DNA of 64,000 bases from Lineus longissimus (lineage: Eukaryota; Nemertea; Pilidiophora; Heteronemertea; Lineidae), in NCBI RefSeq assembly GCF_910592395.1, contig NC_088313.1, positions 8,930,501-8,994,500 of the forward strand, given 5' to 3'. The position numbers were made by a program, and so were the translations under genes. Shown in pieces: positions 12,353 to 58,279 of the stretch (the first letter of the stretch is position 1; every line of letters begins with the position of its first letter). Under the pieces are notes generated by a model, which saw only the letters and a list, made by a program, of their open reading frames with translations, was not told the DNA's origin and did no database searches.

Positions 12353-12426
<74 letters not shown>

Positions 12427-29568: not shown

Positions 29569-29647
<79 letters not shown>

Positions 29648-35577: not shown

Positions 35578-35690
35578 TTGATTGAAACTTGCAACTTGCA
35601 TTTTCAACTTGCAACTTGCATTTTCAACTTGCAACTTCAATTTCAACTTGCAACTTGCATTTTCAACTTGCAACCTGCATTTTCAAGAAA
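35578..35690. repeat. AACTTGC minisatellite array A
   Basis: About five units of 20-22 bp built on AACTTGCAACTTGCATTTTC. Same orientation as array B at 36476-36655. Confidence 0.9.
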
Positions 35691-36475: not shown

Positions 36476-36655
36476 TGTAACTTGCATTTTCAACCTGCAA
36501 CTTGCATTTTCAACTTGCAACTTGCATTTCCTACTTGCAACTTGCATTTCGAACTTGCAACTTTCATTTTCAACTTGCAACTTGCATTTTTAACTTGCAA
36601 CTTGCATTTTTAACTTGCAACTTGCATTTTTAACTTGCAACTTGCAACTTGCAGA
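36476..36655. repeat. AACTTGC minisatellite array B
   Basis: About eight units of 20-22 bp (AACTTGCAACTTGCATTTTT). The array ends AACTTGCAACTTGCAGAAAA then GAAACCCTCA, close to the end of the right MULE repeat near 58010-58040 (AACTCGCAACTCGCAGAAAA then CCCTCA). Confidence 0.9.
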
Positions 36656-38271
36656 AAAGAAACCCTCAAGTAAGGGTACTGTTAGGTCGACGACTTTCGC
36701 GAGTGTGAGTTTGTGTTTACCTTGGTTCCATAATCGTCGTAAGATGGCAGGGTGGTAGGTAGACTTAGTTCCCCGACCAGCCAACCGGCACCCGTCCCGA
36801 ACTGTACAGTACACAGGGTGGTATATCGTACGTTAACGTAATAGTGTTGATTTTTGTCTGCATTCAGTGGTGTAAGTAGATTTTGACCTGATAAACCTGA
36901 TATGTGTCATCCCCGGAATGATTGGATCGGTTTGATAGGCGATTTTCTTCCGTGAAAGACACACTTTCGTGCTCTGTTCAATCAATGTCAATGAGTTCAG
37001 TCACTCGCATGGCAGCATGTCATGCATGTCGGCGTGTGTTTTCCAGCCCGGCGGTACAGTGCCAGTGGGAAGACGCTATACATGATCATGATGATGTACA
37101 ATGTAGGCCTAGTGTAATGTGTTGCATGGTTGCATGCAAACTGGTTAGCAGCCATTGCCACTGCAATGCCACAGGCCGACCGGGTGTAGAAGTAGAACAT
37201 GTCCCCTGAAAAAAAGTGTCCGGCCCTATGTATTCTGCTAGCCTAAAGGCCCTATGCCTGGTGCGGTTACTAGCCCATGACCATCAATAGCACAGAGATC
37301 AAAGTTCATAATAGAATCCTTTGTTTCCTGGACATTCTACCCTATATAGGTCAAAAGGAACTTCTACACCAGCCTCTAGCTACTGCCTATAGTAACAGTA
37401 CTGGTCAGTGTTGTGTTGCATTTCATTGCAGTGACAATTGACTGTGTGAATTATCCCCAGGCACAGCCCTCCCCCTTCCTATTTTGTAGTTCAAGATATG
37501 AAATGCTACATTAGGGTTAAAGACGTCTTTCTCAGAAATTTGTGCTCCTATCATGTGTGGCCTTGGGCAAGGCACTTTATACACTTTGCCAGCATTGTGA
37601 TCAACGTCTTTTTGCAATACACATTTCACAAAGTCTCCTCTGCAAATCCGGATAATTGGCAACATTTTTTAGCCATTCAGAAGCACCTATTGGTAGAACC
37701 CCCCCCCCCCCCCTCAGTTTTGCAGAACAGAAAAAACGTGTTTTGCTCTGGGCCCCACATACTGAGCACATGGTTGCTTACCCATGCCCCAAAATCTCAT
37801 CAAGTACCAGTATTAGATGAACCTTCCTTAGCACACACCTCTCATTTAGGACACCTATCAAGGACAACACATTTTTGTCCCAAACAGGTCATTTCCATTG
37901 AATTTGACCTCTGTAATCAGGAAAACTCTTAAAACCTAAGACAGCATCTGTCAGTCCCAAAAATGTCTGCCAAATAAATGGATGTGGTACTGGTGTGATT
38001 CAAATGATTGCAGTCATGTGGGGATATGGACTTAAGGTTATATTCTTGTCTCTTTTCAGGTAGAAACAAAGAACATGGCTGCCGTCGAAGAGGTTTGTCT
38101 TGGGAGTTTTAATATACTGACGAAAAGAGATTGTATAGTGTTTTTACTGTCAGGGTCATCACATCTTCTTCTTCACTGTATTAATTTTGTGCCAAACAAA
38201 TGTTTTCCTGTTGTTTATGCACACTGAAAGTCAGAATATCACTGTGGACAAGCACGTGGTGCGACTTTCAT
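36656..38271. other. No clear gene; possible mini-exon
   Basis: No domain. A C15 run lies near 37699. Near 38060-38093, TCTTTTCAG, then an ATG in good context (ACATGGCTGCC) and GAG|GTTTGT could mark a very short exon (MAAVEE). I would not rely on it. Confidence 0.35.
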
Positions 38272-39460
38272 GCGAGTTGCGAGTTGCGAGTTACATTTGC
38301 GAGTTGCGAGTTACATCTGCGAGTTGCGAGTTGGATTTACCACAATTTGCTAATTTCAGCAGGCAACAAAGTTAGACATTCCTAGACCCAATCAATGACA
38401 CTGGTAATGAACGACTGGTAATCAATGGCCAAAAAATGTTGAACTAGCCCAACTTGCAGAAAAGAAAACCCCCATGGTTATTCTTTTCTGCGAGTTGCCT
38501 GGCTGAAATTGCCAAATCATGGTAAATTCTCTTGAATTTGGTCATGTTTGGCCACACTGGTAGGATGCCTCATATCAGAGATGCCCTCTCTCATTTCAAG
38601 TGTCATTTATTGGGTCTAGAAATGGCTAACTAGCCCAACTCGCAGAAAAGAAAACCCCCGGGGTAATTCTTTTCTGCGAGTTGCCAGTTGAAATTGGCAA
38701 TTTATGGTAAATTCTCTTGAATTTGGCCATGTTTGGCCACACTGATAGGATGCCTCATATCAGAGATGCCCTCTCTCATTTCAAGTGTCATTTATTGGGT
38801 CTAGAAATGGCTAACTAGCCCAACTCGCAGAAAAGAAAACCCCAAGGGTAATTCTTTTCTGCGAGTTGCCAGTTGAAATTGGCAATTTATGGTAAATTCT
38901 CTTGAATTTGGCTATGTTTGGCCACACTGATAGGCTGCCTCATATCAGAGATGATTTCTGTTATTTCCAGTGTCATTTATTTGGTCTAGAAATGTTGCGC
39001 TAGTTTAACTTGCAGAAAAGAAAACCCCCGGGGTAATTCTTTTCTGCGAGTTGCCTGCTGAAATTGGCAATTTATGGTAAATTCTCTTGAATTTGGCCAT
39101 GTTTGGCCACACTGGTAGGATGCCTCATATAAGAGATGCCCTCTTTCATTCCCAGTACCATTCAATGGGCAAAACATGTTGAAATAGCCCAACTCGCAGA
39201 AAAGAAAATCCACAGGGGTAATTCTTTTCTGCGAGTTGTCTGCTGAAATTAGCAAATCATGGTAAATTCTCTTGAATTTGGTCATGTTTGGCCACACTGG
39301 TAGGTTGCCTCATATCAGAGATGCCCTCTCTCATTTCCAGTGTCATTGATTGGGTCTAGAAATGGCTAACTAGCCCAACTCGCAGAAAAGAAAATCCACA
39401 GGGGTAATTCTTTTCTGCGAGTTGCCTGCTGAAATTAGCAAATCATGGTAAATTCTCTTG
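38272..39460 (+). repeat. Left terminal inverted repeat array
   Basis: Outer minisatellite at 38272-38340 (GCGAGTTGCGAGTTACATTT), then six units of about 185 bp. Each unit holds a palindrome, CAACTCGCAGAAAAG ... CTTTTCTGCGAGTTG with a C/G-rich centre, near 38450, 38636, 38820, 39008, 39190 and 39377. This is followed by TTTGGCCACACTG and GTCTAGAAATGGCTAACTAG. Units differ by a few per cent. Confidence 0.9.
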
Positions 39461-39665
39461 AATATTTCCCAAATTTATAATTCAAATACATGTACATATT
39501 TCTTTTACCTCTTGGCTTTGGGGTAAAAGCAACCCCTAATCACCAGTCTTACCATGCGTTCACAGGCATTGTTTTATCATTAGAAGACATGCCACTCTAC
39601 ACTATCCTTGCAGGTTTTAGTGCATCTAAAGGTGTAGGCCTAATCGAGGTGATAGTGAATGAAAC

Positions 39666-41313
39666 GGCCAGGGGCCATTGTGCTCACCGTAAGTATTTTT
39701 AGTAGACAGTTACAGAAAGTGCTACAGTATGTAGGCCTCTCATAATTTATACATGCATCTGTGACCAGTTCAGAGCCGGCCCTGGCCAAGTGGTGAATCC
39801 GAGACTTGTTGTTCCAAGCTTGTAGAGTCTAGGTGAAAATGATAGTGAAGAAACGTGCCACTCCATGACAATGGTGAATATATTTTTAACTTTGACCTCA
39901 GTGACCCTGACAGGTAGGTCAAATAACAAACCAGGGTGATATTGTGATGTAGACACATCCACCTGACCATAACAATTTCATCACTCGTTACACTACAGCA
40001 ATCGGCAAAAAACGATTTCCAAGATGGCCGCCTAATTAAATCTATGGCACCAAATAAATCAAAAAATGAAGAAAATGTAAGATAGAACTCAGAAAAAAAA
40101 AGGGAAAGATGAAAAATAAAAATATTTTTGGCTGTCCTTGACCGGGGTTTGAACTCACGACCTTTGGATTGCCACAATACGAGGAAAAACCCACAAAACA
40201 TGCAATTTCGGCCATATTTGAATTCCGATCTGGCTGAAACTTGGCATACAAATAGTGGCTTCTTAGATGCATCATTACACAAAATTAAAACTCTTTACAT
40301 TGAACAACGACAAAACGTACCAAGAACGGTAAATTTTCAACTTTGACCTCTGTGAACTTGAAAGGTGGGTCAAATCAAAAACCCGTAAGATATGTGATGT
40401 ATCCTTGCTGGGGGAACCTACCATGAAACTTTTATCAAAAACAAATCAGTAATAAGCGAGAAATCACACTTTTTGAGTTTTGAGTTTGGGCCCCCTGGTG
40501 GCCAAGTCAATAATCAGACCGAACCAAAATTCAGTGTAAAAGGTCAACTGACCTAGGGGGTCATTTGTTCAAAGTTTCAAGTTCATAACTGTTGCGGTTG
40601 AGAAACGTGCCATAGTTACACTCAAACGGCAAATTTACGCCATTTGACCTCTGCGACCTTAAAAAGTAGGTCAAATCCAAAAAATCGTGCAACATCTGAG
40701 GTAACCTTGCTAGGGGTCCCTGCCATAAAAATTTCATCAAAAACAATTTGCTAATAAGCAGGCTATTGCACTTCTTACTTTTTCTGTTTTGGCCCCCTGG
40801 TGGCAAAGTCAAGAATCAGATCAGGCTGAAATTCAGCACCAGAGGTTATCTGATATAGGGGGTTATATGTACCAAGTTTCAAGCTCATAGCTTTGGTGGT
40901 TGAGAAACGTGCCATAGTTACACTCAAACGGCCAATTCACGCCATTTGACCTTTGCGTCCTTGAAAAGTAGATCAAATTAAAAACCCGTAAGATATATGA
41001 TGTATCCTTGCTATGAGTACCTACCACAAAAGTTTTATCGAAAACAAGTCACTAATAAGCGAGATATCACACTTTTTAGATATCCACATTTGGCCCCCTG
41101 GTGGCCAAGTAGAGAATCAGATCGGACAGAAATTTAGTGTCACGGGTCATCTGACCTAGGGGGTCAAAGTTTGTGTACAAAGTTTTAAGTTCATAGGCCT
41201 AGCGGTTAAAAAACGTGCCACTGTTTTTGAACTAGGATACGACGGACGACGACGACGACGACGGACGACGGACACTGCGGTATCGTATAGACTCCCCTAC
41301 GGTGAGCCAAAAA
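39666..41313 (+). mobile_element. HINE/pearl-like element, copy 3 (diverged)
   Basis: Starts GGCCAGGGGCCATTGTGCTC and ends, after a short (GAC)n tract at 41238-41271, with ACTCCCCTACGGTGAGCCAAAAA. It has at least four internal units with CCCCCTGGTGGCCAAGT and AAACGTGCCAnnGTTACACTCAAACGG. An insertion near 40100-40180 holds a tRNA-like B box on the minus strand (GTGAGTTCAAACCCC). Older than copies 1 and 2 by its divergence. Confidence 0.72.
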
Positions 41314-43536
41314 GGTGGTTGCTTTTCCCCGATTTTACCTTACACGGCATTCGGCAATACCAGCTAATATTGTGCTTAGGTTGTTTCTGCCCATCAGTTT
41401 CCGCAGATTCCACAGTTTCCGCAGCTTTTGCTAAATCAAATTGCCATGGCCCAGCTGGAGGTGTAAAGATAAAAAGCCAGTTAAAACACCTGTTCTTGGA
41501 ATCCTCGAATATTATATAAGATATGATTGGAGATAACTTTCTAATTATGTAGTAGTTATATATAGCCATCAGCAAGGAAGCAGGACTTTATCCCTTATCT
41601 TCGATTATGTAACCAGACGGTTGGCTCATGTTTTGACCTATATCATGATCATTGTGCTCAAGATGTGGCATGTGCTTTGAGTGTTGTTTCGATTTGAGTG
41701 TTGAATGTGTACGAGAGTACAAAAAAAGTGTTTTCCGCGGTTTCTGAGTAAAACTAGCCCTTGCATGGTCACCAGACAAATGCCAGAGAGCGAGACTATT
41801 TTGACTGGAGTAACCCGAACCAGACATGTTTGATTGGAAGGATTTACACACCTCTTGATCTTGACATGACATGATGCCTGTCATTTGAGATTTACCCGTT
41901 TCGGCTGGACCAATGTTGGGATTTTCAGAGCCATTACAGAAACAATAAGCAGGTAAGATAAGCACAGTTCATTTCGTATCAATAATTTTCTGGGGAGCTA
42001 GCTCAAATAATGCTTTTTGGTTTGGGGAAATGAAAGTATTTGGCCAAAATCTTGGTCAAAAACCCATTCTTAGTGACTTGGGGGGGGGGGGGATTATCCC
42101 TGGGAAATGATCGAAAAGACACTAGAATTTACCACAAATGAAATCACCATCATCATCAATTTAGGTCGAAGGCCTTTTTTCATTTGCCTGTAAGCTGTTG
42201 GCCTGAGGTATGGAGTCCACTAAAGGCTCTTCTATCCACCTACTTGGGGTCTTTTACCGGCGGGCAGAAAATGCATGCTGCATACCGTCTGCAGACTGGG
42301 GGTTTTCTCATGAGTCAATAGAATCTAAGGTCTGGAATTAGGGGACCATATCAGCTGTTGCTTTAAGCCAACTTCTGCTTTAATTCTGTTGAAGTGTTTG
42401 ATGTTTTAAGTTGAGTTGTGTTGAGGGTTTGATAGAAGAGGAGCTGATTTGAAGCCGGTTAGGTATCTAAATCGGGACTTCTGTTGAGGTGTTGTTTTCA
42501 ACCTCAACACAACTCCCCTTTAAAACCCAACCCCTCAGCAAACCTCTGCATGCTAGGCCTACTTGCATTAACCTACAAAACAAAGACAAGGACCCTATCT
42601 TGATTGTTAGGGTTATGAAGTCAGAGTGTGATGGACACTAAAAGGTAATCCTGTTAGCTGTGAGAATGTTTTGATGTCTGGGCACTTGGCGAACCCTACA
42701 ACATATCATTTTACACTATGTACCGGTACATCAATGTTTTAGGTTAGGCTGAAATGGAGTCAATCCAGAGTCAATTCTTACTCTTTACCACTGATGGGGG
42801 TCATTGATGCATACTCATTCCTTTGGTATGTAATGTGAACCATTGCACTTTTTGGACATTGCTTTCAACACAATGGTACTCAGCCACGAAAACACACATC
42901 AAGGTCATCAAGGTGTCAAATGAAAGCTAAAGGCCTATATTTTGATATTATGAAGCATTGAATGGTTAGTAATAATATGTAATCAGCTGCCCGTATTAAC
43001 CCCTTCTGTCGGGATTTTTTTGAGACACCCTGTATACCCTAAGTGACCGGTTCTGGCAGAGATGATATGAAAAACATCAACATTTGCCAGTAAAAGAACA
43101 TGCAAACTTCTCAAGATTCATTGAAATTGTTATCAAGGGATGTCTTTACTTGAAAATGAAGTCATTGTCACTTGAATGATCATTATAACAAAACTGTTTG
43201 AGAAAGTTTGAAAAAGTTATTGCACTGTATTTTTGGTGATATTTGGTATATGATAAATATGATGACTATATATAACCCGTTAATTTTCTCAGGCTTCAGA
43301 AAATCAACTTGTGCGATCTGGTGATTCGGATCAGCCATTCGGGCAGTATTCTTATTAAAAGGGTATCCTTCTGAAAATGTTTGTTAAAGAGTATTATCAT
43401 GATGCTGTAAACTTCCTGTTTCATTCACCATTTGGATTTTTTAATTGGGTTGGCCTATTTTGGATTTTTAATGATTACTTTATACTGGTGCAAATTACAG
43501 GGTTAGGTTTTAATTGTTGGCATTGTTTCTTTTCAG
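41314..43536. other. Non-coding; 5' flank of the kinase exon
   Basis: If the composite gene has upstream exons or a promoter they should be here, but none is convincing. AAGCAG|GTAAGA near 41952 is a possible donor, and TTTTCTCAG at 43293 is a possible acceptor followed by an open stretch without a matching donor. G-rich and microsatellite tracts occur near 42080 and 42140. Confidence 0.35.
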
Positions 43537-44610
43537 AAATGTTCAAGCGGCCAGTCCTGAGACCGGTTCTCGTAAATGACAGAGAGAAGGAAAGGCGAAC
43601 TCTCATTCAGCACCTGACGGAGGATCTCCCAAAGTCGGATTCCAGAATGCTCAACATTCTTGGCATCATTGGCCATGGCAGCTATGGAAAGGTGCATTTA
43701 TGCAAGAAGAATGGACAACATGTTGTGCTGAAGGAATTAATTGATTGTAGTGATGAAAAGAACATCCGCCTCATAATAAAGGAAGCCAGGCTATTGAATA
43801 GCATAAGACATCCCAATATAGTGCAGTTCAATAGTGTTTTCCATGACTCCGAAAATGGCTCCCTCCCCATGAGAAATGGTTTCATCATGGAGTATGTACA
43901 CTTCAGTTTTAAGCCATTGAATATGGACAAAGATGTATCATCTCTAACAGACTTTCTGAACATCGTAGACCAATACGATGGTGTTGGTTTTGAACATGTG
44001 AGCAAGTTTATTGCCAAGGACATCGTCAGTGCATTGGCTTTCTTACACAGCAAAGATGTTGTTCATAGGGACCTGCAAATGTTCTAGTGTCAAATAGCCA
44101 CTACAGTTCTCTGAGTGATAGTGAAATTAACAACTTCTGGGCAACCAAGCCAATTGTGGCAAAACTGACGGACTTTGGGGAAAGCAGGGCTGCTTTGATT
44201 CAAACAAACAGCTTGGTCCAAACGGCAACTCGAAACTTAAACAGGGGATCGCCTGTGTTTATGGCCCCAGAACTGCTACTCTGCGATGAGGGACTTAGTT
44301 TGTCGATCCATGAACTGAAGAACGCTGACGTATGGTCATATGCGATGATCTTATACACAATTCTCAATCCAGAGTATAGATATCCTTTTGAAAAGGAATT
44401 TAAAGCCCTCCCCCAGAATAACAGCCTTGATCTCCTAAAGAAGATCCTTAGGTTAGGGAAATTGCCTGAGCATGGACACAAATATGAAAATTTAAAATCG
44501 AAGGACTGGAAAGAAATGTTTGCAGCTTACGAGAAATGTGCCAAATTTGGTCAGCGACCTACATCTCAGCAACTGCTGTCAGTTTTTGGAGAGAACATCA
44601 TCAAAGAAAG
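43537..44610 (+). pseudogene. Ser/Thr protein kinase domain of the composite gene
   Basis: An exon with acceptor TTTCTTTTCAG and donor GAAAG|GTAAGA (phase 2). The ATG at 43539 could be the start. Motifs: glycine loop GHGSYGKV (residues 45-52), ATP-binding Lys in VVLKEL (65), helix-C Glu in IKEARLL, HRDL catalytic loop, DFG in LTDFGES, GSPVFMAPELL and DVWSYAMILY; the core is full-length for a protein kinase. One lesion: after HRDL the frame shifts, and PANVLVSN follows in the new frame. Comparison with the HRDLKPxN consensus suggests loss of about seven bases between two CCTG copies, removing the catalytic-loop Lys-Pro. Splice phases link it to downstream linker exons and the peptidase. Substrate and origin are unknown. 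Confidence 0.85.
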
Positions 44611-44888
44611 GTAAGACATTTTTGATTTGAATCAGTTTGCTGGCACATTTTTGTTAGCGGGGGTGTTTATCAGTCGTTCGTGGCTAATGATCTCTATTTT
44701 TCCATGTGCCTGTGATCAGTTCACAGTGACTTTCGTAGTGACTAGCTGGAACCAAAAGAGTTGCTCATGTTCAATGAATAAAACTGACAAACTGAACCCT
44801 CAAGGACCCAAGGGGTCCATACAAACGAAGAAGTACTGCATATATTGTAGCATGATTTCCATAATTATTATATATTGTGTTTTTTCAG

Positions 44889-44987
44889 CGTGCCATCAAC
44901 AGGAAACACTCTAACCCATGGACAGCAATTGCTTCCTCCAGTGCCATCTGCAGGATGCATGCAACAAGCTGGACAAGTGACGTCGAG
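44889..44987 (+). CDS. Linker exon, copy A
   Basis: 99 nt between TTTTTTCAG and GTCGAG|GTAAGG, phase 2 in and out, in frame with the kinase exon. It encodes VPSTGNTLTHGQQLLPPVPS and a short Gln/Gly-containing tail. No domain; a flexible linker. Duplicated with its flanking intron 364 bp downstream. Confidence 0.65.
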
Positions 44988-45252
44988 GTAAGGAAACTGT
45001 ATGACTAAAAATTAAACAGAAAGTCTATGCATTAACGCAACTGTAGGATGCTGTCCTGTTCTTTGATTCTTCCAAGGCTCCCACTACACTACGTATGCAC
45101 TACGTACGAAGCTCACAGCGATTGACTAGTAATACAATTCTTGAGTTCAGGTCTGCAGTTCAAGTCATAAATTGTCCGGTCCATACAAACGAAGAAGTAC
45201 TGCACATATTGTAGCATGATATCCATAATTATTATATATTGTGTTTTTTCAG

Positions 45253-45351
45253 CGTGCCATCAACAGGAAACACTCTAACCCATGGACAGCAATTGCTTCC
45301 TCCAGCGCCATCTGCAGGATGCATGCAACAAGCTGGACAAGTGACGTTGGG
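45253..45351 (+). CDS. Linker exon, copy B (tandem duplicate)
   Basis: 99 nt, nearly identical to 44889-44987, with a GG|GTAAGG donor. The duplicated block covers about 364 bp (44815 and 45179 starts) with only a few substitutions. Both copies have frame-preserving length, so either or both can be included. Confidence 0.65.
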
Positions 45352-45551
45352 GTAAGGAAACTGTATGACTAAAAATTAAACAGAAAGTCTATGCATTAAC
45401 GTAACTGTAGGATGCTGTCCTGTTCTTTCATTCTTCCAAGGCCCCCACTACACTACGTATGGACTACGTACGAAGCTCACAGCGATTGACTAGTAATACA
45501 ATTCTCGAGTTCAGGTCTGCAGTTCAAGTCATAAATTGTCCTATTTTTCAG

Positions 45552-45695
45552 TGCCTCCACTGATTCTCAAGGATCTCCTGTGTTGACAGTTAACCTTCCT
45601 GAAATTATCTACATGCCCAGAAACAGAAGTTGTTCTCCTGATGAGAGGTCTTGCCAAAGACAGACTAATACGAGTAAACGTGACAATGAGAGGAG
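45552..45695 (+). CDS. Linker exon
   Basis: 144 nt between TTTTTCAG and AGGAG|GTAATG, phase 2 in and out. Product is polar: STDSQGSPVLTVNLPEIIYM, then a basic Ser/Arg/Gln-rich part. No domain recognised. Fits between the duplicated exon and 46107 without breaking the frame. Confidence 0.6.
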
Positions 45696-46106
45696 GTAAT
45701 GATAACCCAAATTTTACACCTGTCAAAAGGGACCACTTGTTCACAGATGCAATGTACATGTGAGACACTTTACTTGAAGCTGAACTGTTCAAGATAGAAG
45801 CTCTGTTCAGCATTCAACACCCAATGACTTTGATAGCAGTGGTTGATTTGGGGGTGGTGTGCTCCCACTTTCGCCCGGCAGAAACATAAAAATAATTTCT
45901 ATTTTGGTGCCATTTTACTAGGCGCCTTTTCAAGCCTAAGGCAGCTGCCTATTTATGAACTACTCCATATTCCCCTGACTTAACAGAGCCATTATATCGC
46001 ATGAAATTTCCTGAGAACATGTCTCAGAGCATCTGTAATTTAAAGCATTTCCTGGGGTAGGCCCCCTGAAGTATGAGAAATGACCTTTTCTACCATCTTC
46101 TTTCAG

Positions 46107-46215
46107 GCATCAGGAAAATAGTTTCAGAAAAAGTTTCCCCAGTTCCCATGCAGACAGACCATCTACATCTACTGGTGGTAGCTTCAATCCCGGGATTATT
46201 GCCCCTGCTACTCGT
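46107..46215 (+). CDS. Linker exon before the peptidase
   Basis: 109 nt between CTTTCAG and ACTCGT|GTAAGT, phase 2 in, phase 0 out, matching the phase-0 acceptor of the peptidase exon at 47051. Ser/Arg-rich sequence ending GGSFNPGIIAPATR. No domain. Confidence 0.6.
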
Positions 46216-47050
46216 GTAAGTTTATTGCTTACTGGTATTATGACGTGTAACCCATCAATTCAAAGTCGGTGCCCAGTGACCGGTTCCGACGGGAAATTGG
46301 TAGGGTTGGATGGCCTGGTGACTGGGCTCCAAGTGAAGAACAGGTTAAGAGCTGAATCCATTTTGCCCTACAAATTGGAGTACAAATTGTAAAAACTGTC
46401 AAAATTGAGGTGGCACACAGCTTGCCCTTGGAATGTTATTAAGTCTCAGGTGACTGTCAGAATGTATCAAAGCAAGGAACCAAATATGAAAGGGTAAACA
46501 TGAATGTGGTAGGTTAGAATTTATATCACTGAATGTAATGTTCAGATATTGTTGACTTGGCAAATTGATGTACGTCCACTGTGCCTGCATTACCGCAGCT
46601 GAATGAAAAAAAAGTAACGTTTAGTGATATACCTTCCATGATTCACATTGTAACTAATATTCCCATGTTAAAATTCTCTGGGCCATACATGAATAGGTTG
46701 CCATAGGAAATACCACTTATTCTGGCATGCAAAGTTCATCTAATGTGCAATATGCCAGAATGGGTTAAGTGTGTATTTTATGATTGCATCCCAGTCAACT
46801 GTCAACTGACAGCAGGATGTTACTTTACCCACGAAGATAAACATTCATGTTCAATTCAAGATGAGTTACAATCAAATTCATTTTTCTCCAAAACATGAAG
46901 AGTGCACTTATGTAAACCACTCTGGCACTACCCTCGCGTTGGGTCCTGAACCATAAGGTATATCTGATATCCTGTTCTTGTCTGTGCTGTTTCCGATCAA
47001 GAGAGATGACTAGCATGTAAAGTTTAATAATTTCTTGGTTTTCATTACAG

Positions 47051-47680
47051 GTGAACTGGGATTTTCTTATGATGGGTGAATTTCATCAGGCATCTGAGCA
47101 CATGTTTTCCCACGGAGCGGCAGGTTCTCAGTGTGCTTCAATGAGTGTCATGGCCATCATGTTTCCCAATTCAAACCACCAACTTGCTGGAGCAAGCATG
47201 ACATGAATGACATTCTGATTCAGGGAAATGATACCCATCTGAGAGCTTTGAGGGAATTAGGATGGCCGGACAGAAGAGAAGAAACCTCACTGGACATCGA
47301 TGAGATATCACATATTCAGGAATTTTCAGTCAATGGGAAGAATGTGGCTGTTAAACCCATTGTGCTGGTGCAGCTTGACTTTTTTGGCTTCGAACTGCAA
47401 CCAGTTTTAAATGCAGCCCTGGATCAACACAAAGGACAGGCCCTTGTCCTGAGGGTTGGGAACACATGCAGTGCAATCATTCCATGCTCTGATGAGAAGT
47501 ACAGCCTCTTTGACAGCCATTCATGTAGTGAGAGAGGACGACAAGACCCTGATGGTGCTGCATGCATGATGATCTTCAGGACAAGGAATGACCTCCTACT
47601 TCATCTGAACAAATGGTACACAGATGATGCGAGTCAAATAGATGTCTTTCCAGTAAATGCCAAAGTCCTAAATGTCCAAG
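47051..47680 (+). pseudogene. C76-like cysteine peptidase exon of the composite gene
   Basis: An exon from TTCATTACAG to GTCCAAG|GTAAGG. It starts VNWDFLMMGEFHQASEHM, with SQCASMSVMAI (candidate nucleophile Cys at 47132-47134) and SLFDSHSCSE (Asp 47512-47514, His 47518-47520), then PDGAACMMIFR. It aligns with 25138-25768 through GEFHQAS, LDIDEIS, LVLRVGN and DSHSC. It is 630 nt where the intact relative is 631, and the frame changes after AIM at about 47155-47165, so a single base is missing. Apart from that it is intact. Peptidase activity is inferred from the motif only. Confidence 0.75.
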
Positions 47681-47883
47681 GTAAGGAGAATGCTAGTCAG
47701 ACAGTGAAATGACTCGACAGCTTTCGAAGCTATTTTGCAGTAACTGTTCGATTGTTTATTATGGCTGCACAATCAAATAAAGAATTTGGTTGTGCGGGAC
47801 TACTAAATTACTGAGGGTTGAGGGGGTAGACTCTATCAGAACTAGCTCTGCACTTGACTCGGAATCCAGTCCCTAGTGGTGAC

Positions 47884-48307
47884 TGCCCATAAGTCCGAGG
47901 GTTCACAAGACCACAAAGAAAAGTCTGAAATACCATTTGAAACGTGTGTATCTTATTGTTAGTTACCAGTCTATGTAGCATCAGTATTAAATATACGCGG
48001 AAACATCAAATACGGGAAAACCGATCAACCTGACCCAGCATCACGCGATTTTCATTGCAGGTATTCCTTAGTTAGCATGGCGTACGTGACAAGGCCGAGG
48101 GCTAAATATTTCTTATTTTCAATGATTTCTGCTAACCATCGTAACAAGAATGCCATGGAAAACTTATATTGGCGAGATTTTTTCACTGCTTAATATAATA
48201 GGCCAAAAATCATTAATTTCAAAGTTTTGTTTTCGGCCTTGTGGATGCTCAGCCCTATGGACTTTGAATGGACCTTCGGAATTGTGGACTTTTGGACTTA
48301 TGGGCGG
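47884..48307. mobile_element. MITE-like element, GCCCATAAGTCC ends
   Basis: The left end GCCCATAAGTCCGAGGGTTC (47886) and the right end GGACTTATGGGC (48294-48305) are inverted, with further matches inward (CACAAGACCACAAAG against the GAATTGTGGACTTTT region). About 420 bp without coding. It sits in an intron of the composite gene and resembles the ends of 32696-32938. Confidence 0.68.
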
Positions 48308-48623
48308 TAATCGTCTCTAGCGCTGCGCTGACTATCAGGTTCTCATGCTAGTGACTTGGAAAATTGGCTCAGCTGTTTCTTGCCAATGGCATTGCAGAAG
48401 CACCGGTTTCATCAAGTTGGTCTTATACATATTTTCAGAATGCCCTGTTTAAAATCAATGTGACATTCACAGTGTCCGACTCAACTCAGCACTTGGGGGC
48501 GTTTTCAAGTAATATGAAGCGACAAAGGCAAGATGAACTGTCGTGCATCCAGTAATCCCAAAATGGCAGGAATTAGGATTTGATGACACTCATACTTGAA
48601 TCGAATTTATCTTTATCTTGCAG

Positions 48624-48707
48624 CCTTTGATTCACCTCACGATGATAGAGGAGCAGTTGATTCAGAAAGTTGGAGAGAGGCTGCAGAAAGTTCGCATTCC
48701 GTTAAAG
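48624..48707 (+). CDS. Linker exon, copy A, after the peptidase
   Basis: 84 nt between ATCTTGCAG and TTAAAG|GTAAG, phase 1 in and out. Starts AFDSPHDDRGAVDSESW, an acidic, Ser-rich linker. Duplicated 645 bp downstream with flanking intron. Confidence 0.62.
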
Positions 48708-49268
48708 GTAAGAGGGCATAACAATCACAATCATAGTTAAACACTAATTATTTTGTGTTTAACTAAAAATACGGCCTACATCCTGTTACCTAAATACTTG
48801 GGAATCTCCATACCCAGCTACCATTAGGATTGATTGGAATTTGTGATGATTTCTGGAGAAACCCAAACATTACAAGTATACATGTACTGACTTTTAGCTG
48901 GAAGTTTAGTTGTGTGCAGCTATAGGCCTATCCAAATTATTTAAGTTAAACTCATATTAATTAGACCGAAGTGGTCATACTTCTGATTGCAAACTCTGGA
49001 AATTCCAAATATTTAGGTTTAACTGGATGTAGGCCATAATTAGAGTTTAACTCAAAACAGTTATAGTTAAACTTATACATGTATTACTCTTATGACCACT
49101 TCATATCGCCATACTTGGGGGCATTTTGAGTAATATGAAATAGGTGACAAAGGCAAGATGTACTGTCCTGCATCCAGTCATCTCAAAATGGCAGGAATTA
49201 GAATTTGATGACACTCATACTTGAATTGAATTTACATACTTGAATTTACATGTATCTTTATCTTGCAG

Positions 49269-49355
49269 CCTTTGATTCACCTCACGATGATAGAGGAGCA
49301 GTTGATTCAGAAAGTTGGAGAGAGGCTGCAGAAAGTTCGCATTCCGTTGAAGCAG
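49269..49355 (+). CDS. Linker exon, copy B (tandem duplicate)
   Basis: 87 nt between TATCTTGCAG and GAAGCAG|GTAAG, phase 1 in and out. Identical to 48624-48707 except at the end, where it is one codon longer. The preceding intron is also duplicated (GGCATTTTGAGTAATATGAA-like text near 49120 and 48495). Confidence 0.62.
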
Positions 49356-50224
49356 GTAAGAGGGCATAACAATCACAACCATGTTCACTAATTTGACTAT
49401 GTCCATTTTGACAAATGACATTCTCTGAGTCTTTGGACAATGACGCTTTGAATGTCTCCTTGCATGAGAAGGCAATATCAGGGTTGCCTAGATAGTCAAG
49501 GAAGTCGGTGTTGCTGGTCTTTGAGCCAGCCTCTTTAAAAACACTGGAATGCATTTTAGCATTGGCCTACTTCTGAAGTACATAAGGGTAGATGATCAAA
49601 ATCTTGTTTATAGGGGAACACATAGCCCATGGACCATACCCCTAGTGTTAGCGTACTACAATATCTTCCCTTTGAGGGTTTCTTACCTATGCAATGGAAT
49701 GGGAAGCCTGGGCAGAATGATTTCTTGATACATATACATGTACAGTCAACCTCAGCTAGGTCGAATATGATAGGATCCTCACCACAGCTTTGACTAGGCC
49801 AAAATTGAAACTACGAGTATGTTTCGGCATACAAATAAATATTTGTGAGGGAGGCCTGTGAGTGATCGTGACATTGTTTACTGTTGGCTCATGAAATTTA
49901 CTGTCTTCCTTATCTACATGTACCCATTAGGTGGAAATTTGCCGTATCAGAATTCGACTTGGGTGAATTTGCATTAGTTTCGGACCAGGATTCCAATTCG
50001 AGATAGCCGAACATTTGAGTAATAAACATAGTCTTATGAAGTTTCTACAGGAAAATGCATTAAGAAATTTGTGACATTCCCCTTACTTTGACTTGGTCAA
50101 ATTTCCGAGTTAGACGGCATTGTCTAATGCAAGGTTGACTGTATCTCAGATGCATATTAAGCTGGCAAAATTCTGGGCAGTTCCTGCATTAGAATATCAC
50201 TCAAAAGCCATAATTTCCTTTCAG

Positions 50225-50311
50225 ATATTACCCCCGGTTCAAAGGATGGAATTTCAGTGGGTGCAGAAGGTCGGAGACTGCCCAAGGAAACGGTGCTTTC
50301 AGTCGATAGAG
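50225..50311 (+). CDS. Linker exon before the transposase
   Basis: 87 nt between TTTCCTTTCAG and ATAGAG|GTAAGG, phase 1 in and out. Product ITPGSKDGISVGAEGRRLPK and a short tail. It connects in frame to the transposase exon at 50678. Confidence 0.6.
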
Positions 50312-50677
50312 GTAAGGATCAAGACAATGTATTTGTGGATATTTGTAGCATTTTAGAATTGACCTACTTCTCAAGGACACAGAAGTCGAGACCTTCTATC
50401 ATAACTGGTAGATGATCAAAATCTCTTGATCCTTGGACCATTTCTTCTAGAGTTTGTGTACCCTTGGTACAATATTCCCTTGGAATGGTGACAAGCAAAG
50501 AATGGACTTGATCAGAGAAGTCCGATATTGGCTATCTAATGGGACCGTTGCATGCATCATACAATTAAGCATTGGGCCTCAATGTCAGACCATGCAGGTG
50601 TTGAAGATTTAAGGGGTGACTCTACTCTACCCCTCGTTCCTTCACTTCAAAACACTAATAAAATCTATTTCTTACAG

Positions 50678-52836
50678 AATCACGTGGTTCATCTGATGGT
50701 TATCTGACTGAATCAGCGTCAAAAGGTCCAGTTAGCAGTAGGAAGACAGTGTACGATACATCGATTTGGGCCTCATGCACGCAAGAAAAAGTTAAAGAAT
50801 TGCCGTATGATATAAATGGGTTAAAAGTATATCATGTACCTTGCAAGTCACCGAAGGAAACAATGAAAGATATGAAAGATGGCCGACCATGGGGTCGTTA
50901 TTGCAAAAGCAGTAGGAAAGGATTCGCTGGCATACGGCGCGGCGCATTGGACACTGCAAAGGCTCAATGATATGTAGAAACGAACAGTGCCCATATCGTC
51001 AAATGTATGGCTGTGAGAACCGAAGACAATTTAGTAGGCAAGGCGGTATTATGAAATGTTTTACTTGTGGTACTCCTGGTGAATTGATTGACTGCAATGC
51101 CACAAAAGTGTGGGAGTTACACGGTGATGTGGTGCATGTGATGCACATCGGGCACCATTCTTGTGTGGCAAAGAAACCGAAGATTTCTATTGAAGTTCTT
51201 GCCAAAGATGTCCAGGAGCATCCCGGTATGAAGCCTACTGGAATGGTGAACGCAAAAATGTCAGAAATCATCTGTAGTGAAAATTTCAATTGGGAATATG
51301 TCGAAGATATGGCACGGAGATATGACGACATGAAACGTCTCCATAATGTTCAACAAAGGCATAAAGAAGTAGTCTTTCCCATGGGAGAAAACTTTGAAGC
51401 CCTGGGGGATTTCAAAAGGAAGTGCGATGAAAGGGACAAGTGTTTCATTTACAAAATAAACAATCGGGCATTAAACGGGGAAAATTCCTTTGTATTTAAG
51501 TCGAGTACTTCCATGGTTAAGCTTGCAATGTCCATGGATAAGGACAAAGATGGTGTTCTTCACAAAGAGTATGCCTATATTAATGGCAAACATGACCGTT
51601 GTCGAGGTTTCGTTACCCTGACCCTTTGGGTATATCACCCAGTGCTACGTAAGGTCTTGAGGATAGTAGCCTGTGAGGCTGAAAAGGCAGACACTGCTAA
51701 TATTACCAATCTCTGGTTGGTTCTCAATCAAATGTTGGCAGAAGTTGGGGGTCCAAATACAAGGTTCAACCCAACCGGCTGGGTGGCAGATGAGAATCAT
51801 GCGAATTGGCGAAGTATTAGCGAGGTTTTCGGGGAGGAAGAAATAGCGAGAACAGTGTCATGCGAGTTCCATTACAAGCAAAGTGTGCAGCGAAATGCAA
51901 AGAAGGTGTCAGCTGATGATGCGGGTGAATTTATCCAGCTCGCTGATGCACTGCTCACTGAATATTCATTGGCCGGATTTCAATCTGCATGTGAGGATAT
52001 GAAGTGTTCATCAGAAAATATGGCGATCTGAATCAATGGTTCAATTGGTGGTTCACAAGAAGAAGCCACATTTTCCGGGCATTTAAGCGAAGTGATGCTT
52101 TTGCCTCAACATTGGCTGAGGTGGGACATGCAAAAATGAATGTCGCCAAGAGTAACATGACTCTGCTGGAAGCAGCCCGACAAGACGTGATCGACGCCAT
52201 TCGTCAATCTGCCGAACTTGAAGGTTTTGAGAAGGGAGTCCATCAGGGTGGACGGGGTAAAACTTCCACAGCAAAAATGGCGGCATATTACAAACAGCAA
52301 AAAAAGCGGGCTCTTGAGTACAGCCAAGAACTGGACCAAATCTACCTTGCAAAGAAGGGAAGCCATCGTCCACCAGAATCACGGAAAAAGAAAGCAGCAA
52401 AAGACAACAAAGAAAAACCTCCAAAGAGGAGCAGAACTGAAATCCAAAGCCCAGACGTGCAGTTGAAATCACCGGCCCTCCCATTGAGAGATGATCAACC
52501 CTTCTCTGTCTGCTTCTTCAGTATGATCATAAACCTGAAGACCTGCTATGATTGTAATCGTAACTTTGCTGAGAAGCACAAGAAAGAACCGAATGATGTC
52601 ATTTTGAAAACCGTTCTCAAACGGAGGTTTTTCAAAGATGGTAAGGAACGTGTTTCCACCAAGCCTCAATATTTCAATATCACCAAGCGGCATATTTCCA
52701 TTTGAAGATGGACTGTGTCAGGATGGTGAGACCATATACCGAGATAGATGACATTGTGATTCATTATGAGGTCAGGAATAGTCTCTCAGAAGGGCAGAGA
52801 CGGGTACTCTTGTGTTTTGGTATGCACAACATATAG
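50678..52836 (+). pseudogene. MULE-type transposase, copy 1
   Basis: Acceptor TTTCTTACAG, phase 1 (ESRGSSDGYLTE...). The N-terminus has a DGRPWGRYC block and zinc-finger-like Cys/His sets (HCKGSMICRNEQC; KCFTCGTP, HIGHHSC) resembling WRKY-GCM/FLYWCH-type DNA-binding domains. The DDE-type core has VADENHANWRS, CEFHYKQSV and Glu in AEVGHAKM. Lesions: a 5-bp CGGCG duplication near 50938 shifts the frame; the first catalytic Asp of YIDGKHDRC is Asn here (AAT at 51582-51584); a frameshift near 52000, and another before DCVRMVRPY near 52680, are shared with copy 2. The C-terminus is basic, with CYDCNRNF. It would cut at the terminal repeats; this copy cannot work. Confidence 0.85.
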
Positions 52837-53285
52837 CCGAAGTAGTGAATGTTTGTCAGAGGAGGCTTCATTGATCAGTTTACAATCTGGGTCAAATTCT
52901 ATCTGAAACAAGGACACAGAAGTCGAGACCTTCTATCATAACTGGTAGATGATCAAAATCTCTTGATCCTTGGACCATTTCTTCTAGAGTTTGTGTACCC
53001 TTGGTACAATATTCCCTTGGAATGGTGACAAGCAAAGAATGGACTTGATCAGAGAAGTCCGATATTGGCTATCTAATGGGACCGTTGCATGCATCATACA
53101 ATTAGGCATTGGGCATCAATGTCAGACCATGCAGGTGTTGAAGATTTAAGGGGTGACTCTACTCTACCCCTCGTTCCTTCACTTCAAAACACTAATAAAA
53201 TCTATTTCTTACAGAATCACGTGGTTCATCTGATGGTTATCTGACTGAATCAGCGTCAAAAGGTCCAGTTAGCAGTAGGAAGACA

Positions 53286-55313
53286 GTGTACGATACATCG
53301 ATTTGGGCCTCATGCACGCAAGAAAAAGTTAAAGAATTGCCGTATGATATAAATGGGTTAAAAGTATATCATGTACCTTGCAAGTCACCGAAGGAAATAA
53401 TGAAAGATATGAAAGATGGCCGACCATGGGGTCGTTATTGCAAAAGCAGTAGGAAAGGATTCGCTGGCATACGGCGCATTGGACACTGCAAAGGCTCAAT
53501 GATATGTAGAAACGAACAGTGCCCATATCGTCAAATGTATGGCTGTGAGAACCGAAGACAATTTAGTAGGCAAGGCGGTATTATGAAATGTTTTACTTGT
53601 GGTACTCCTGGTGAATTGATTGACTGCAATGCCACAAAAGTGTGGGAGTTACACGGTGATGTGGTGCATGTGATGCACATCGGGCACCATTCTTGTGTGG
53701 CAAAGAAACCGAAGATTTCTATTGAAGTTCTTGCCAAAGATGTCCAGGAGCATCCCGGTATGAAGCCTACTGGAATGGTGAACGCAAAAATGTCAGAAAT
53801 CACCTGTAGTGAAAATTTCAATTGGGAATATATCGAAGATATGGCACGGAGATATGACGACATGAAACGTCTCCATAATGTTCAACAAAGGCATAAAGAA
53901 GTAGTCTTTCCCATGGGAGAAAACTTTGAAGCCCTGGGGGATTTCAAAAGGAAGTGCGATGAAAGGGACAAGTGTTTCATTTACAAAATAAACAATCGGG
54001 CATTAAACGGGGAAAATTCCTTTGTATTTAAGTCGAGTACTTCCATGGTTAAGCTTGTAATGTCCATGGATAAGGACAAAGATGGTGTTCTTCACAAAGA
54101 GTATGCCTATATTGATGGCAAACATGACCGTTGTCGAGGTTTCGTTACCCTGACCATTTGGGTATATCACCCAGTGCTACGTAAGGTCTTGAGGATAGAA
54201 GCCTGTGAGGCTGAAAAGGCGGACACTGCTAATATTACCAATCTCTGGATGGTTCTCAATCAAATGTTGGCAGAAGTTGGGGGTCCAAATACAAGGTTCA
54301 ACCCAACCGGCTGGGTGGCAGATGAGAATCATGCGAATTGGCGAAGTATTAGCGAGGTTTTCGGGGAGGAAGCAATAGCGAGAACAGTGTCATGCGAGTT
54401 CCATTACAAGCAAAGTGTGCAGCGAAATGCAAAGAAGGTGTCAGCTGATGATGCGGGTGAATTTATCCAGCTCGCTGATGCACTGCTCACTGAATATTCA
54501 TTGGCCGGATTTCAATCTGCATGTGATGTTATTTCGAGCCTTACACTATGTGTTGAGTCAATTAAGGAATGGATGGTGAGAAACAAACTGAAATTGAATG
54601 ACAGTAAGACCGAATTTTTCCTTGCATGTGTAAAGAACCTACAGAAGTATGTGTCTGATCTGAAATTGAAAATTGGCGATACTGAAATTGAGCTGAGTGA
54701 TACCATCAAGATTCTTGGTGTAACATTTGACAGAGAAATGTCCATGAAAACGCATGTTAACAATGTATGCCGTGCGGCAAATTTCCATCTCTATCGTATA
54801 AGCAAGATAAGATCTTTGCTCAGTAAATCAGCAGCAACAAGTGCAGTGCGGACCTTAGTTGTCTCGCGGTTGGACTACGCAAATAGTCTGCTATATAACA
54901 TCTCTGAGGCCAATGTGCGTAAGCTTCAACTGGTTCAAAACTCGGCAGCTCGTCTCGTCACTAGGGTGTCCAGAGGGGATCATATCACTCCGGTTCTGTG
55001 CGCACTCCACTGGCTTCCTTTGAAAGCAAGGCTCGAGTACAAGGTTAATCTAATGGTCTACAAATGTCTACATGATTACGCACCAAAATATCTCGCAGAC
55101 TGCTTGGAAGTTTACAAACCCTCACGCTCCCTGCGGTCAAGTACAATGGGTCTGTGTAAGGAAATGCGCACAAACCGGGTGATAGGCTCCTCTGCATTCG
55201 CAGTGGCGGGACCAAAGCTATGGAATGAGCTTCCAAATAGTGTTCGTGGCCAGAGTACCCTGGGTCGTTTTAAAACTGCACTAAAAACTCATATTTTTAA
55301 GAAATTCTTTTGA
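53286..55313 (+). CDS. Chimeric ORF: transposase fused in frame to LINE RT C-terminus
   Basis: A single 675-codon open frame in which about the first 413 residues are MULE transposase (zinc-finger part and the first two catalytic Asp residues) and the last about 260 are the C-terminal region of a LINE reverse transcriptase (LNDSKTEFF, ILGVTFDREMS, SRLDYANSLLYN, LHWLPLKARL, AGPKLWNELP). The fusion comes from a plus-strand LINE insertion that happens to be in frame. No RT catalytic YADD is included and the transposase Glu is lost, so enzymatic function is unlikely. Whether it is transcribed is unknown. Confidence 0.75.
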   Translation: MYDTSIWASCTQEKVKELPYDINGLKVYHVPCKSPKEIMKDMKDGRPWGRYCKSSRKGFAGIRRIGHCKGSMICRNEQCPYRQMYGCENRRQFSRQGGIMKCFTCGTPGELIDCNATKVWELHGDVVHVMHIGHHSCVAKKPKISIEVLAKDVQEHPGMKPTGMVNAKMSEITCSENFNWEYIEDMARRYDDMKRLHNVQQRHKEVVFPMGENFEALGDFKRKCDERDKCFIYKINNRALNGENSFVFKSSTSMVKLVMSMDKDKDGVLHKEYAYIDGKHDRCRGFVTLTIWVYHPVLRKVLRIEACEAEKADTANITNLWMVLNQMLAEVGGPNTRFNPTGWVADENHANWRSISEVFGEEAIARTVSCEFHYKQSVQRNAKKVSADDAGEFIQLADALLTEYSLAGFQSACDVISSLTLCVESIKEWMVRNKLKLNDSKTEFFLACVKNLQKYVSDLKLKIGDTEIELSDTIKILGVTFDREMSMKTHVNNVCRAANFHLYRISKIRSLLSKSAATSAVRTLVVSRLDYANSLLYNISEANVRKLQLVQNSAARLVTRVSRGDHITPVLCALHWLPLKARLEYKVNLMVYKCLHDYAPKYLADCLEVYKPSRSLRSSTMGLCKEMRTNRVIGSSAFAVAGPKLWNELPNSVRGQSTLGRFKTALKTHIFKKFF

Positions 55314-55457
55314 ATCCTTTGCACGTTTTTTTTTTTTTTTAGTAATGACTTTTATTCTATCATGTATTAATGTTATGTTTTATTATAAATTGTAAAGCGC
55401 TTATAAGTTTTAACAACGTTAAGCGCTATAAAAATGTTTTTAATAATAATAATATTA
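54527..55457 (+). mobile_element. 5'-truncated LINE with 6-bp target duplication
   Basis: 931 bp inserted in transposase copy 2, defined exactly by comparison with copy 1. Flanked by ATGTGA at 54521-54526 and 55458-55463. It encodes only the RT C-terminal region, then a T-rich 3' UTR, GCGCTATAAAAATG and an (AAT)n tail. It belongs to a third LINE family, different from those at 20.6 kb and 27.6 kb. Confidence 0.93.
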
Positions 55458-56379
55458 ATGTGAGGATATGAAGTGTTCATCAGAAAATATGGCGATCTGA
55501 ATCAATGGTTCAATTGGTGGTTCACAAGAAGAAGCCACATTTTCCGGGCATTTAAGCGAAGTGATGCTTCTGCCTCAAACTTGGCTGAGGTGGGACATGC
55601 AAAAATGAATGTCGCCAAGAGTAACATGACTTTGCTGGAAGCAGCCCGACAAGACGTGATCGACGCCATTCGTCAATCTGCCGAACTTGAAGGTTTTGAG
55701 AAGGGAGTCCATCAGGGTGGACGGGGTAAAACTTCCACAGCAAAAATGGCGGCATATTACAAACAGCAAAAAAAGCGGGCTCTTGAGTACAGCCAAGAAC
55801 TGGACCAAATCTACCTTGCAAAGAAGGGAAGCCATCGTCCACCAGAATCACGGAAAAAGAAAGCAGCAAAAGACAACAAAGAAAAACCTCCAAAGAGGAG
55901 CAGAACTGAAATCCAAAGCCCAGACGTGCAGTTGAAATCACCGGCCCTCCCATTGAGAGATGATCAACCCTTCTCTGTCTGCTTCTTCAGTATGATCATA
56001 AACCTGAAGACCTGCTATGATTGTAATCGTAACTTTGCTGAGAAGCACAAGAAAGAACCGAATGATGTCATTTTGAAAACCGTTCTCAAACGGAGGTTTT
56101 TCAAAGATGGTAAGGAACGTGTTTCCACCAAGCCTCAATATTTCAATATCACCAAGCGGCATATTTCCATTTGAAGATGGACTGTGTCAGGATGGTGAGA
56201 CCATATACCGAGATAGATGACATTGTGATTCATTATGAGGTCAGGAATAGTCTCTCAGAAGGGCAGAGACGGGTACTCTTGTGTTTTGGTATGCACAACA
56301 TATAGCCGAAGTAGTGAATGTTTGTCAGAGGAGGCTTCATTGATCAGTTTACAATCTGGGTCAAATTCTATCTGAAACT

Positions 56380-56659
56380 CCGAAAATCATGCAGCCTCGT
56401 TTTCCTACTTGTGTTCGTAGCAAATTCTGATACTTCAAATAGTAGAATTTCAATACATACACGTGGAAAAGTTGAGCAGGGACCAAGCATCTTCATACAA
56501 ATGTGACATTATATAATGGTAAAAACCAAAAATAGACGAAAATACGCAAAAGGTCTCGGCTTTTCCCAATTTTGTGGTCAGCTGTTCACATTTTCAGAAG
56601 GCTCATTTTTGTCTCATTGAAATTTTTCTTATTTGATATAACTGTTATCAGTGGGATTT
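56380..56659. other. 3' flank of composite gene
   Basis: Unique AT-rich sequence between the duplicated transposase block and the right inverted repeat. No coding signal and no clear AATAAA at the expected distance. Confidence 0.4.
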
Positions 56660-58026
56660 TGAAGCCCAGTTTCAGCTGGCAACTCGCAGAAAAGAATTAC
56701 CCCAGGGTGTTTTCTTTTCTGCGAGTTGGACTAGTTAGCCATTTCTAGACCCGATAAATGACATTGGAAATGAAAGAGGACATCTCTGCTATGAGGCTGA
56801 CTATCAGTGTGGCCATACATGACTAAATACAAGGGCATTTGGCCATGCTTTGCCAATTTCAGCTGGCAACTCGCAGAAAAGAATTACCCCAGGGTGTTTT
56901 CTTTTCTGCGAGTTGGACTAGTTAGCCATTTCTAGACCCGATAAATGACATTGGAAATGAAAGAGGACATCTCTGCTATGAGGCTGCCTATCAGTGTGGC
57001 CATACATGACTAAATACAAGGGCATTTGGCCATGCTTTGCCAATTTCAGCTGGCAACTCGCAGAAAAGAATGACCCCAGGGCGTTTTTTTTTCTGCGAGT
57101 TGGACTAGTTAGCCATTTCTAGACCCGATAAATGACATTGGAAATGAAAGAGGACATCTCTGCTATAAGGCTGCCTATCAGTGTGGCCATACATGACTAA
57201 ATACAAGGGCATTTGGCCATGCTTTGCCAATTTCAGCTGGCAACTCGCAGAAAAGAATTACCCCAGGGTGTTTTCTTTTCTGCGAGTTGGACTAGTTAGC
57301 CATTTCTAGACCCGATAAATGACATTGGAAATGAAAGAGGACATCTCTGCTATGAGGCTGCCTATCAGTGTGGCCATACATGACTAAATACAAGGGCATT
57401 TGGCCATGCTTTGCCAATTTCAGCTGGCAACTCGCAGAAAAGAATGACCCCAGGGTGTTTTCTTTTCTGCGAGTTGGACTAGTTAGCCATTTCTAGACCC
57501 GATAAATGACATTGGAAATGAAAGAGGACATCTCTGCTATGAGGCTGCCTATCAGTGTGGCCATACATGACTAAATACAAGGGCATTTGGCCATGCTTTG
57601 CCAATTTCAGCTGGCAACTCGCAGAAAAGAATTACCCCAGGGTGTTTTCTTTTCTGCGAGTTGGGCTAGTTAGCCATTTCTAGACCCGATAAATGACACT
57701 GGAAATGAGAGGGGGCATCTCTGATATGAGGCATCCTACCAGTGTGGCCATACATGACTAAATACAAGGGCATTTGGCCATGCTTTGCCAATTTCAGCTG
57801 GCAACTCGCAAAAAAGATTTACCCGGGGGTTTTCTTTTGCGATTTGGGCTAGTTTGACATTTTTAGACCCATTTAATGACACTGGAATTGAAAGAAGGCA
57901 TCTGGCATTTTTAACTCGCAAATCCAACTCGCAACTCGCAAATGTAACTCGCAACTCGCAAATCCAACTCGCAACTCGCAAATGTAACTCGCAACTCGCA
58001 AATCCAACTCGCAACTCGCAACTCGC
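56660..58026 (-). repeat. Right terminal inverted repeat array
   Basis: Seven units of about 184 bp, inverted relative to the left array. Each has the palindrome CAACTCGCAGAAAAG ... CTTTTCTGCGAGTTG (near 56686, 56871, 57055, 57239, 57427, 57617 and 57800), then CTAGTTAGCCATTTCTAGAC and CAGTGTGGCCATACATGAC. The outer cap at 57912-58026 is (AACTCGCAACTCGCAAATCC)n, the complement of the left cap. The inner five or six units are nearly identical (local homogenisation). The outermost unit is the most diverged. Confidence 0.9.
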
Positions 58027-58279
58027 AGAAAACCCTCAGAGTTTCAGAGTATCATGTTTCCCGATAAAAAAAGTTAGTTTCTTATCATGTTGAATGCATC
58101 GCATGCACATTCTAAACACTTTGATTCATTTAAAATGATCTTTGTGTGACAAATTTCCTGTCACGTTGCATGCATCACATTAAATTTTTTTGTTTCATTG
58201 AAGTTGTCTTTCTTGAATCATCCGAGGCCTTATCTGTTGTAGGGGAAACACTGGCATACAGAAACACTCACAATACTAG

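Follow-up and report, generated by a model that had tools for sequence, protein, structure and literature searches.

A probable giant foldback-type transposon with a kinase, deubiquitinase and transposase gene in Lineus longissimus

The window analysed here is a 64,000-nucleotide stretch of the nemertean Lineus longissimus (contig NC_088313.1, positions 8,930,501 to 8,994,500). We consider it fairly likely that its interval from 38.27 to 58.03 kb represents a single, decayed copy of a giant DNA transposon, in which composite inverted ends enclose one gene for a kinase, a VTD-type (herpes-tegument-like) deubiquitinase and a transposase. The element appears to be a real and probably single, dead transposon of foldback build, probably related to the Mutator-like elements (MULEs); its ends are of a known kind and its gene content is unusual. 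The long inverted ends are composed of internal tandem repeats, which is the structure that defines the foldback type. A diverged sister element lies at 24-36.7 kb.

Inverted array ends and their shared motif

38271..39467, + strand: left composite inverted-repeat end (TRF, self-BLAST, unit comparison), with minisatellite 38271-38333, chimeric unit with inverted piece 38335-38410, and 185-bp units from 38451
56666..58035, - strand: right composite inverted-repeat end (TRF, self-BLAST, unit comparison), with 187-bp units 56666-57903, minisatellite 57913-58027, and terminus GGGTTTTCTGCGAG at 58035, inward reading

The two arrays enclose a span of about 19.8 kb. Tandem Repeats Finder (TRF) resolves 5.5 copies of a 185-bp unit on the left (38442-39463, 89% matches) and 6.6 copies of a 187-bp unit on the right (56666-57903, 96% matches), and the listed minisatellite outside each array, also found by TRF, is of the GCGAGTT type. 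The sequence-only reading had described the arrays as inverted copies of each other, and self-BLAST agrees with TRF in bearing this out: 38432-39467 aligns in inverted orientation with 57864-56825 at 84.7% identity over 1046 alignment columns (E 0), which is far beyond chance, and the minisatellites align at 94.5% (38266-38338 with 58031-57960). The outside-in order proposed in that reading (minisatellite, one diverged unit, homogeneous units of ~185 bp) is recovered, with one correction: the outermost left unit is chimeric, its portion 38335-38410 being opposite in orientation to the rest of the left array. The proposed homogeneity holds on the right, where units R1-R5 are mutually 98-99% identical, and fails on the left, where units L1-L5 are mutually only 84-94% identical; identity between the two sets is 80-88% (unit comparison). 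Because of this difference, the right array may have been recently multiplied or homogenised, the left array being more diverse. A search of the rest of the window with one unit per array returned no further unit and short matches only, the best of which outside the arrays is the terminal motif of the sister element at 36.6 kb.

From the outside in, the right end has the sequence GGGTTTTCTGCGAGTTGCGAGTTG. The core AACTCGCAGAAAAGAA, allowing at most two mismatches, is present in 13 copies across the two arrays taken together, against 12 copies of its reverse complement; all but one of the 13 lie in inverted pairs, and only the outermost right copy at 57803 does not. The ~185-bp units contain a 46-base near-perfect palindrome of this core, in which two motif copies stand head to head, and one unit (38637-38821) folds with a 16-bp stem at -39.6 kcal/mol, compared with -17.8 +/- 3.2 for shuffles. 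The minisatellite is composed of the GCGAGTT part of the motif. Since the terminal motif, the minisatellite and the unit palindromes share a core, all layers of the ends are built from one motif, and this shared motif is a likely transposase-binding site. In the proposed architecture, an end would run from the terminal motif through a minisatellite of its core GCGAGTT to tandem ~185-bp units that bear the palindrome.

The gene between the arrays

43539..44610, + strand: kinase exon (Pkinase PF00069), ends in phase 2
44889-44987, + strand: linker L1, AG/GT limits, open, phase 2-2
45253-45351, + strand: duplicate of linker L1, AG/GT limits, open, phase 2-2
45552-45695, + strand: linker L2, AG/GT limits, open, phase 2-2
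46107-46215, + strand: linker L3, AG/GT limits, open, phase 2-0
47051..47680, + strand: VTD-like protease exon, phase 0 to 1
48624-48707, + strand: linker L4, AG/GT limits, open, phase 1-1
49269-49355, + strand: duplicate of linker L4, AG/GT limits, open, phase 1-1
50225-50311, + strand: linker L5, AG/GT limits, open, phase 1-1
50678..52705, + strand: zinc-finger/DDE-type transposase exon, copy 1
53215..56174, + strand: transposase exon, copy 2, within a tandem duplicate of 50372-52909

As part of the same overall explanation, and at the same strength, the kinase, the VTD-type deubiquitinase and the zinc-finger/D-D-E protein would be encoded by one multi-exon gene at 43.5-52.7 kb. The exons were first chosen by eye from the DNA between the arrays and then tested by script for their limits, frames and phases. 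Ten exons give nine junctions, with phases 2,2,2,2,0,1,1,1,1, and the phase matches at 9/9, an agreement that has no independent probability because the exons were initially picked by eye. The 3'-end phases of the kinase and protease exons were read from the downstream open frames because both exons carry a frameshift. As a control, exon-like segments were defined by a polypyrimidine-AG, a GT-type donor, a length of 40-160 bases and an open frame. The + strand of 44.6-50.7 kb contains 13 such segments, of which several overlap as alternatives; 6.1-kb windows average 3.9 segments on the + strand and 3.1 on the - strand, and 13 is reached in 1/116 + windows and in 0/116 - windows. Two possible further exons upstream of the kinase, near 38060-38093 and near 43295 (by eye), were rejected, as their phase is unfit for the kinase frame.

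The sequence-only reading had the element carrying a kinase and a protease. Both are present, by PF00069 and by VTD homology, and the matching exon phases strengthen the case: the two are no loose cargo and would share one reading frame with the transposase. The two halves of the kinase score 69.3 and 36.8 bits with Pfam PF00069 (cut-off 31.7), and the closest PDB sequences are CDKL2, CDKL1 and LIMK1 (E 2e-10 to 9.6e-10). The Pfam family Herpes_teg_N recognises the domain of a Helentron at 0.9-2.1 kb with 30.9 bits, above the cut-off of 25, and gives 19.6 bits for the sister protease and 12.2 for the protease of the main element, both below it. All three domains are homologous by BLAST, and the Asp-x-His motif (D-S-H) is invariant in 3/3. 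A low-confidence model of the sister protease (pLDDT 44) has VTD/M48 chains as its six best structure matches (E 1.4e-4 to 9.1e-4), with low TM-scores of 0.33-0.35; the seventh match is at E 0.18. PDB searched by sequence at E<=1 gave no match for the sister protease or the sister transposase, and viral contigs contained no relative of either.

No Pfam family recognises the transposase, which has a single zinc-finger match, at E 0.27. The sister copy contains D119, D188, C212-x2-H215 and E299 (D-68-D, C-x2-H, E at 110), a spacing that we take to be of the kind found in MULE/hAT-type enzymes. The gene order would accordingly run from the kinase through a first set of linkers to the VTD deubiquitinase, and through further linkers to the zinc finger/DDE-type transposase. 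In a relative that is still intact, the transposase may bind the many motif copies in the arrays with its zinc-finger part, and would then pair both ends and excise the element for reinsertion. The deubiquitinase may protect the transposase or host helpers from degradation, and the kinase may modify the transposase or host factors. That a giant foldback-type family encodes kinase, tegument-like deubiquitinase and DDE transposase in one gene, and controls its own transposase or the host through phosphorylation and ubiquitin removal, is a tentative proposal to which we give somewhat less than even chances.

The copy in the window is dead, because the kinase, the protease and both transposase copies carry frameshifts and a long interspersed nuclear element (LINE) has been inserted. 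The kinase frame is disrupted between HRDL and NVL, the protease exon is frameshifted near 47165, and a frameshift near 51998 is common to both transposase copies. In addition, copy 1 has five extra bases (50935-50939), and copy 2 is split by a LINE piece (about 54527-55458) that lies between short TGTGA direct repeats. Apart from the 5-base indel, 16 substitutions distinguish the two copies over ~2.5 kb; the duplication is therefore either recent or the product of two haplotypes misjoined in the assembly. Tandem duplication of gene segments recurs at 44814-45541, 48491-49393, 26173-26952 and 50372-56378 (self-BLAST); it involves 364 bp at 97% identity, linker exons in both elements and the transposase exon at about 99%. 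This recurrence may be characteristic of the family, or assembly error may account for part of it.

The sister element and the rival explanations

24079..31116, + strand: sister gene (linker, protease, linker pair, transposase pieces)
24079-24124, + strand: sister linker exon, phase 2-0
25138-25768, + strand: sister VTD-like protease exon, phase 0-1
26203-26265 and 26889-26966, + strand: sister linker pair, phases 1-1 and 1-1
27240-31116, + strand: sister transposase pieces
35586..36665, - strand: sister right-end minisatellites (35586-35686, 36475-36646), core GCAAGTT, related to GCGAGTT
Inward from 36665, - strand: sister terminus GGGTTTCTTTTCTGCAAG

The sister gene is a better test of the exon chain than phase agreement. 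Its exon order and phases are like those of the main element (linker, protease, duplicated linker, transposase), to whose amino-acid sequences its protease is 38% and its transposase 50-56% identical. The second copy of its linker pair is missing among the exon-like control candidates because its donor is GTAAC, and the N-terminal part of its transposase has one in-frame stop and is interrupted by other repeats. Between the two elements, third codon positions are 32-38% identical and first and second positions 50-76%; because third positions have drifted while the others stayed similar, both the protease and the transposase were under selection. On the same side as in the main element, the sister also terminates in a minisatellite and a terminal motif of like kind, with GGGTTTCTTTTCTGCAAGTTG as its right terminus at 36.67 kb. 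That the arrays belong with the gene they enclose, as the sequence-only reading had supposed, is thus supported by the exon order, phases, minisatellite kind and terminal motif of the sister.

Several observations weigh against one giant transposon, besides the choice of exons by eye. Compared over 30 positions, the left end (38263) and the right terminus are alike at 26, and the four mismatches all fall within the outer ~8 bases (by eye). The check for target-site duplications of 8-11 bp, suggested in the sequence-only reading, gave none that is convincing: the best candidate, TCAGAATATCA at 38231 and TCAGAGTATCA at 58044, agrees at 10/11 bases, 75/5000 random pairs do as well or better, and it does not abut the matching termini. 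A single full-size copy is seen in the window. The visible part of the sister contains no kinase (tblastn, E 0.01; phmmer best other match E 0.93), and its left end was not found, the listed matches to its terminus being its own right end or the arrays of the main element. One 6.1-kb window on the - strand, from 49001, reaches 12 exon-like segments. Also, the Pfam MULE domain (PF10551) was absent at E<=10 from the transposases of the sister (480 aa) and of the main copy 2 N-part (443 aa), the other transposase pieces have no Pfam match at E 0.01, and the transposase model is poor and uninformative (pTM 0.29; 0/21 structure matches at E <=0.001). Since this domain is absent from the pieces tested, the element is not filed as a proven MULE, and MULE membership is a lead and no result.

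One rival explanation, which we regard as unlikely, is that the protease-transposase transposon is real and the kinase, foreign to the family, is of host origin, from a partial host gene that was captured or landed in, or from a chimeric and perhaps once domesticated host gene. The tblastn and phmmer searches found no kinase remnant elsewhere in the window, and MULEs are described as tending to acquire host gene fragments (PMC6446971). However, four linker exons connect the kinase to the protease with phase unchanged, and the kinase is located between both arrays. The sister, moreover, keeps the linker exon at 24079-24124 that is expected after such an upstream part; this part may have been lost, and a LINE (endonuclease and reverse transcriptase) lies at 20.6-23.4 kb, immediately upstream of the sister gene. 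It is quite improbable that no 20-kb unit ever moved and that the two arrays, as free satellites or as termini of unrelated elements, face each other by accident: the missing target-site duplication, the unlike outer bases, the 12-20% divergence between left and right units and the spread of foldback-end repeats as satellites in Tetris (PMC4079207) would fit, but both arrays show the same order in mirrored orientation around the gene, the right one begins about 0.5 kb past its end, and a sister gene is followed, on the corresponding side, by an end of like kind.

Known elements, neighbours and significance

The comparisons below follow the portions of the published accounts on which we draw. 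Such ends are not the novelty that they were first taken for, as inverted ends with internal repeats occur in Rehavkus-1_TC, Tm1, Tetris and Galileo. Rehavkus-1_TC (9.5 kb) has inverted termini with a 164-bp satellite unit, mostly in five and eight monomers (PMC10218199), and the Rehavkus group, placed in Repbase as an outgroup or branch of MULEs, is characterised by a 9-bp target-site duplication, a minisatellite, terminal inverted repeats of 26-400 bp, one open reading frame (ORF) and a PHD finger (PMC6446971). The present element likewise ends in inverted satellite and minisatellite arrays. Rehavkus-1_TC, compared by description and not by sequence, is half its length, and those portions mention no kinase or deubiquitinase for Rehavkus. 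In contrast to the PHD finger of that group, no PHD family of Pfam was found in four main and one sister transposase pieces at E 0.01, nor in two pieces at E 10.

Tm1, a nematode Mutator/foldback family of 2.5 kb with 13-15-bp repeats, Pfam MULE and FLYWCH domains and a 9-bp target-site duplication, is also an animal MULE-domain element with composite tandem-repeat ends whose repeat number is unequal between ends; its outermost motifs are not inverted, much as the outer 8 bases mismatch here (PMC3169594). It differs in its recognised MULE domain, and the account used mentions no kinase or protease (PMC3169594). Tetris of Drosophila has long, internally repetitive inverted ends with ~220-bp tandem units and has seeded satellite arrays, but is apparently non-autonomous, and Galileo of Drosophila, with similarly built ends, is a member of the P superfamily; neither account, as drawn on here, mentions a kinase or deubiquitinase (Tetris, PMC4079207). 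For Phantom of aphids, a published table lists a minisatellite that follows the transposase, and an arthropod survey reports elements up to 10.0 kb, about half the present interval, with terminal inverted repeats up to 1193 bp.

The deubiquitinase has its own precedent in VTD-bearing Helentrons, transposons that encode a herpes-tegument-like enzyme of the same kind, in which the Asp-x-His motif is invariant (PMC9741609); they are rolling-circle elements without a DDE-type gene, and this window contains one of them at about 0.9-7.9 kb. The same paper also mentions cnidarian fusions of VTD genes with transposon-associated domains, and its main text lacks the words kinase, MULE and Mutator (PMC9741609). 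Literature titles and the starts of abstracts gave no description of a kinase-deubiquitinase-transposase element, which is weak evidence of absence as most subscription journals and Repbase lay outside this scope. Tandem-repeat inverted ends are thus precedented, and the three-part kinase-VTD-transposase gene looks new.

Other repeats surround the two elements. The Helentron (898-7901) contains, besides its VTD domain (Herpes_teg_N 30.9 bits), DUF6570, Helitron_like_N, a PIF1 helicase and an endonuclease, and 228 bp of its upstream part (712-939) recur at 99.6% identity as an insert in the sister transposase gene (27569-27796). A repeat of ~301-bp tandem units ending in a GAC run occurs at 11317-12484, 28523-29706 and 40325-41270; the first two copies are 96.5% identical and the third about 75%, and one copy interrupts the sister transposase. 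A 206-residue ORF at 59424-60041 matches no Pfam family at E 0.01 and, by eye, resembles an OTU-type protease.

The tegument deubiquitinase of herpesviruses has been proposed to derive from transposons, probably Helitrons (PMC9741609). The occurrence of the same kind of deubiquitinase in one Helentron and in two elements of another type within 64 kb suggests a wider set of carriers. A kinase that shares its reading frame with a transposase would make post-translational control by a transposon directly tractable. In addition, one terminal motif that has become both minisatellite and satellite would provide a testable route from a transposon end to satellite DNA.

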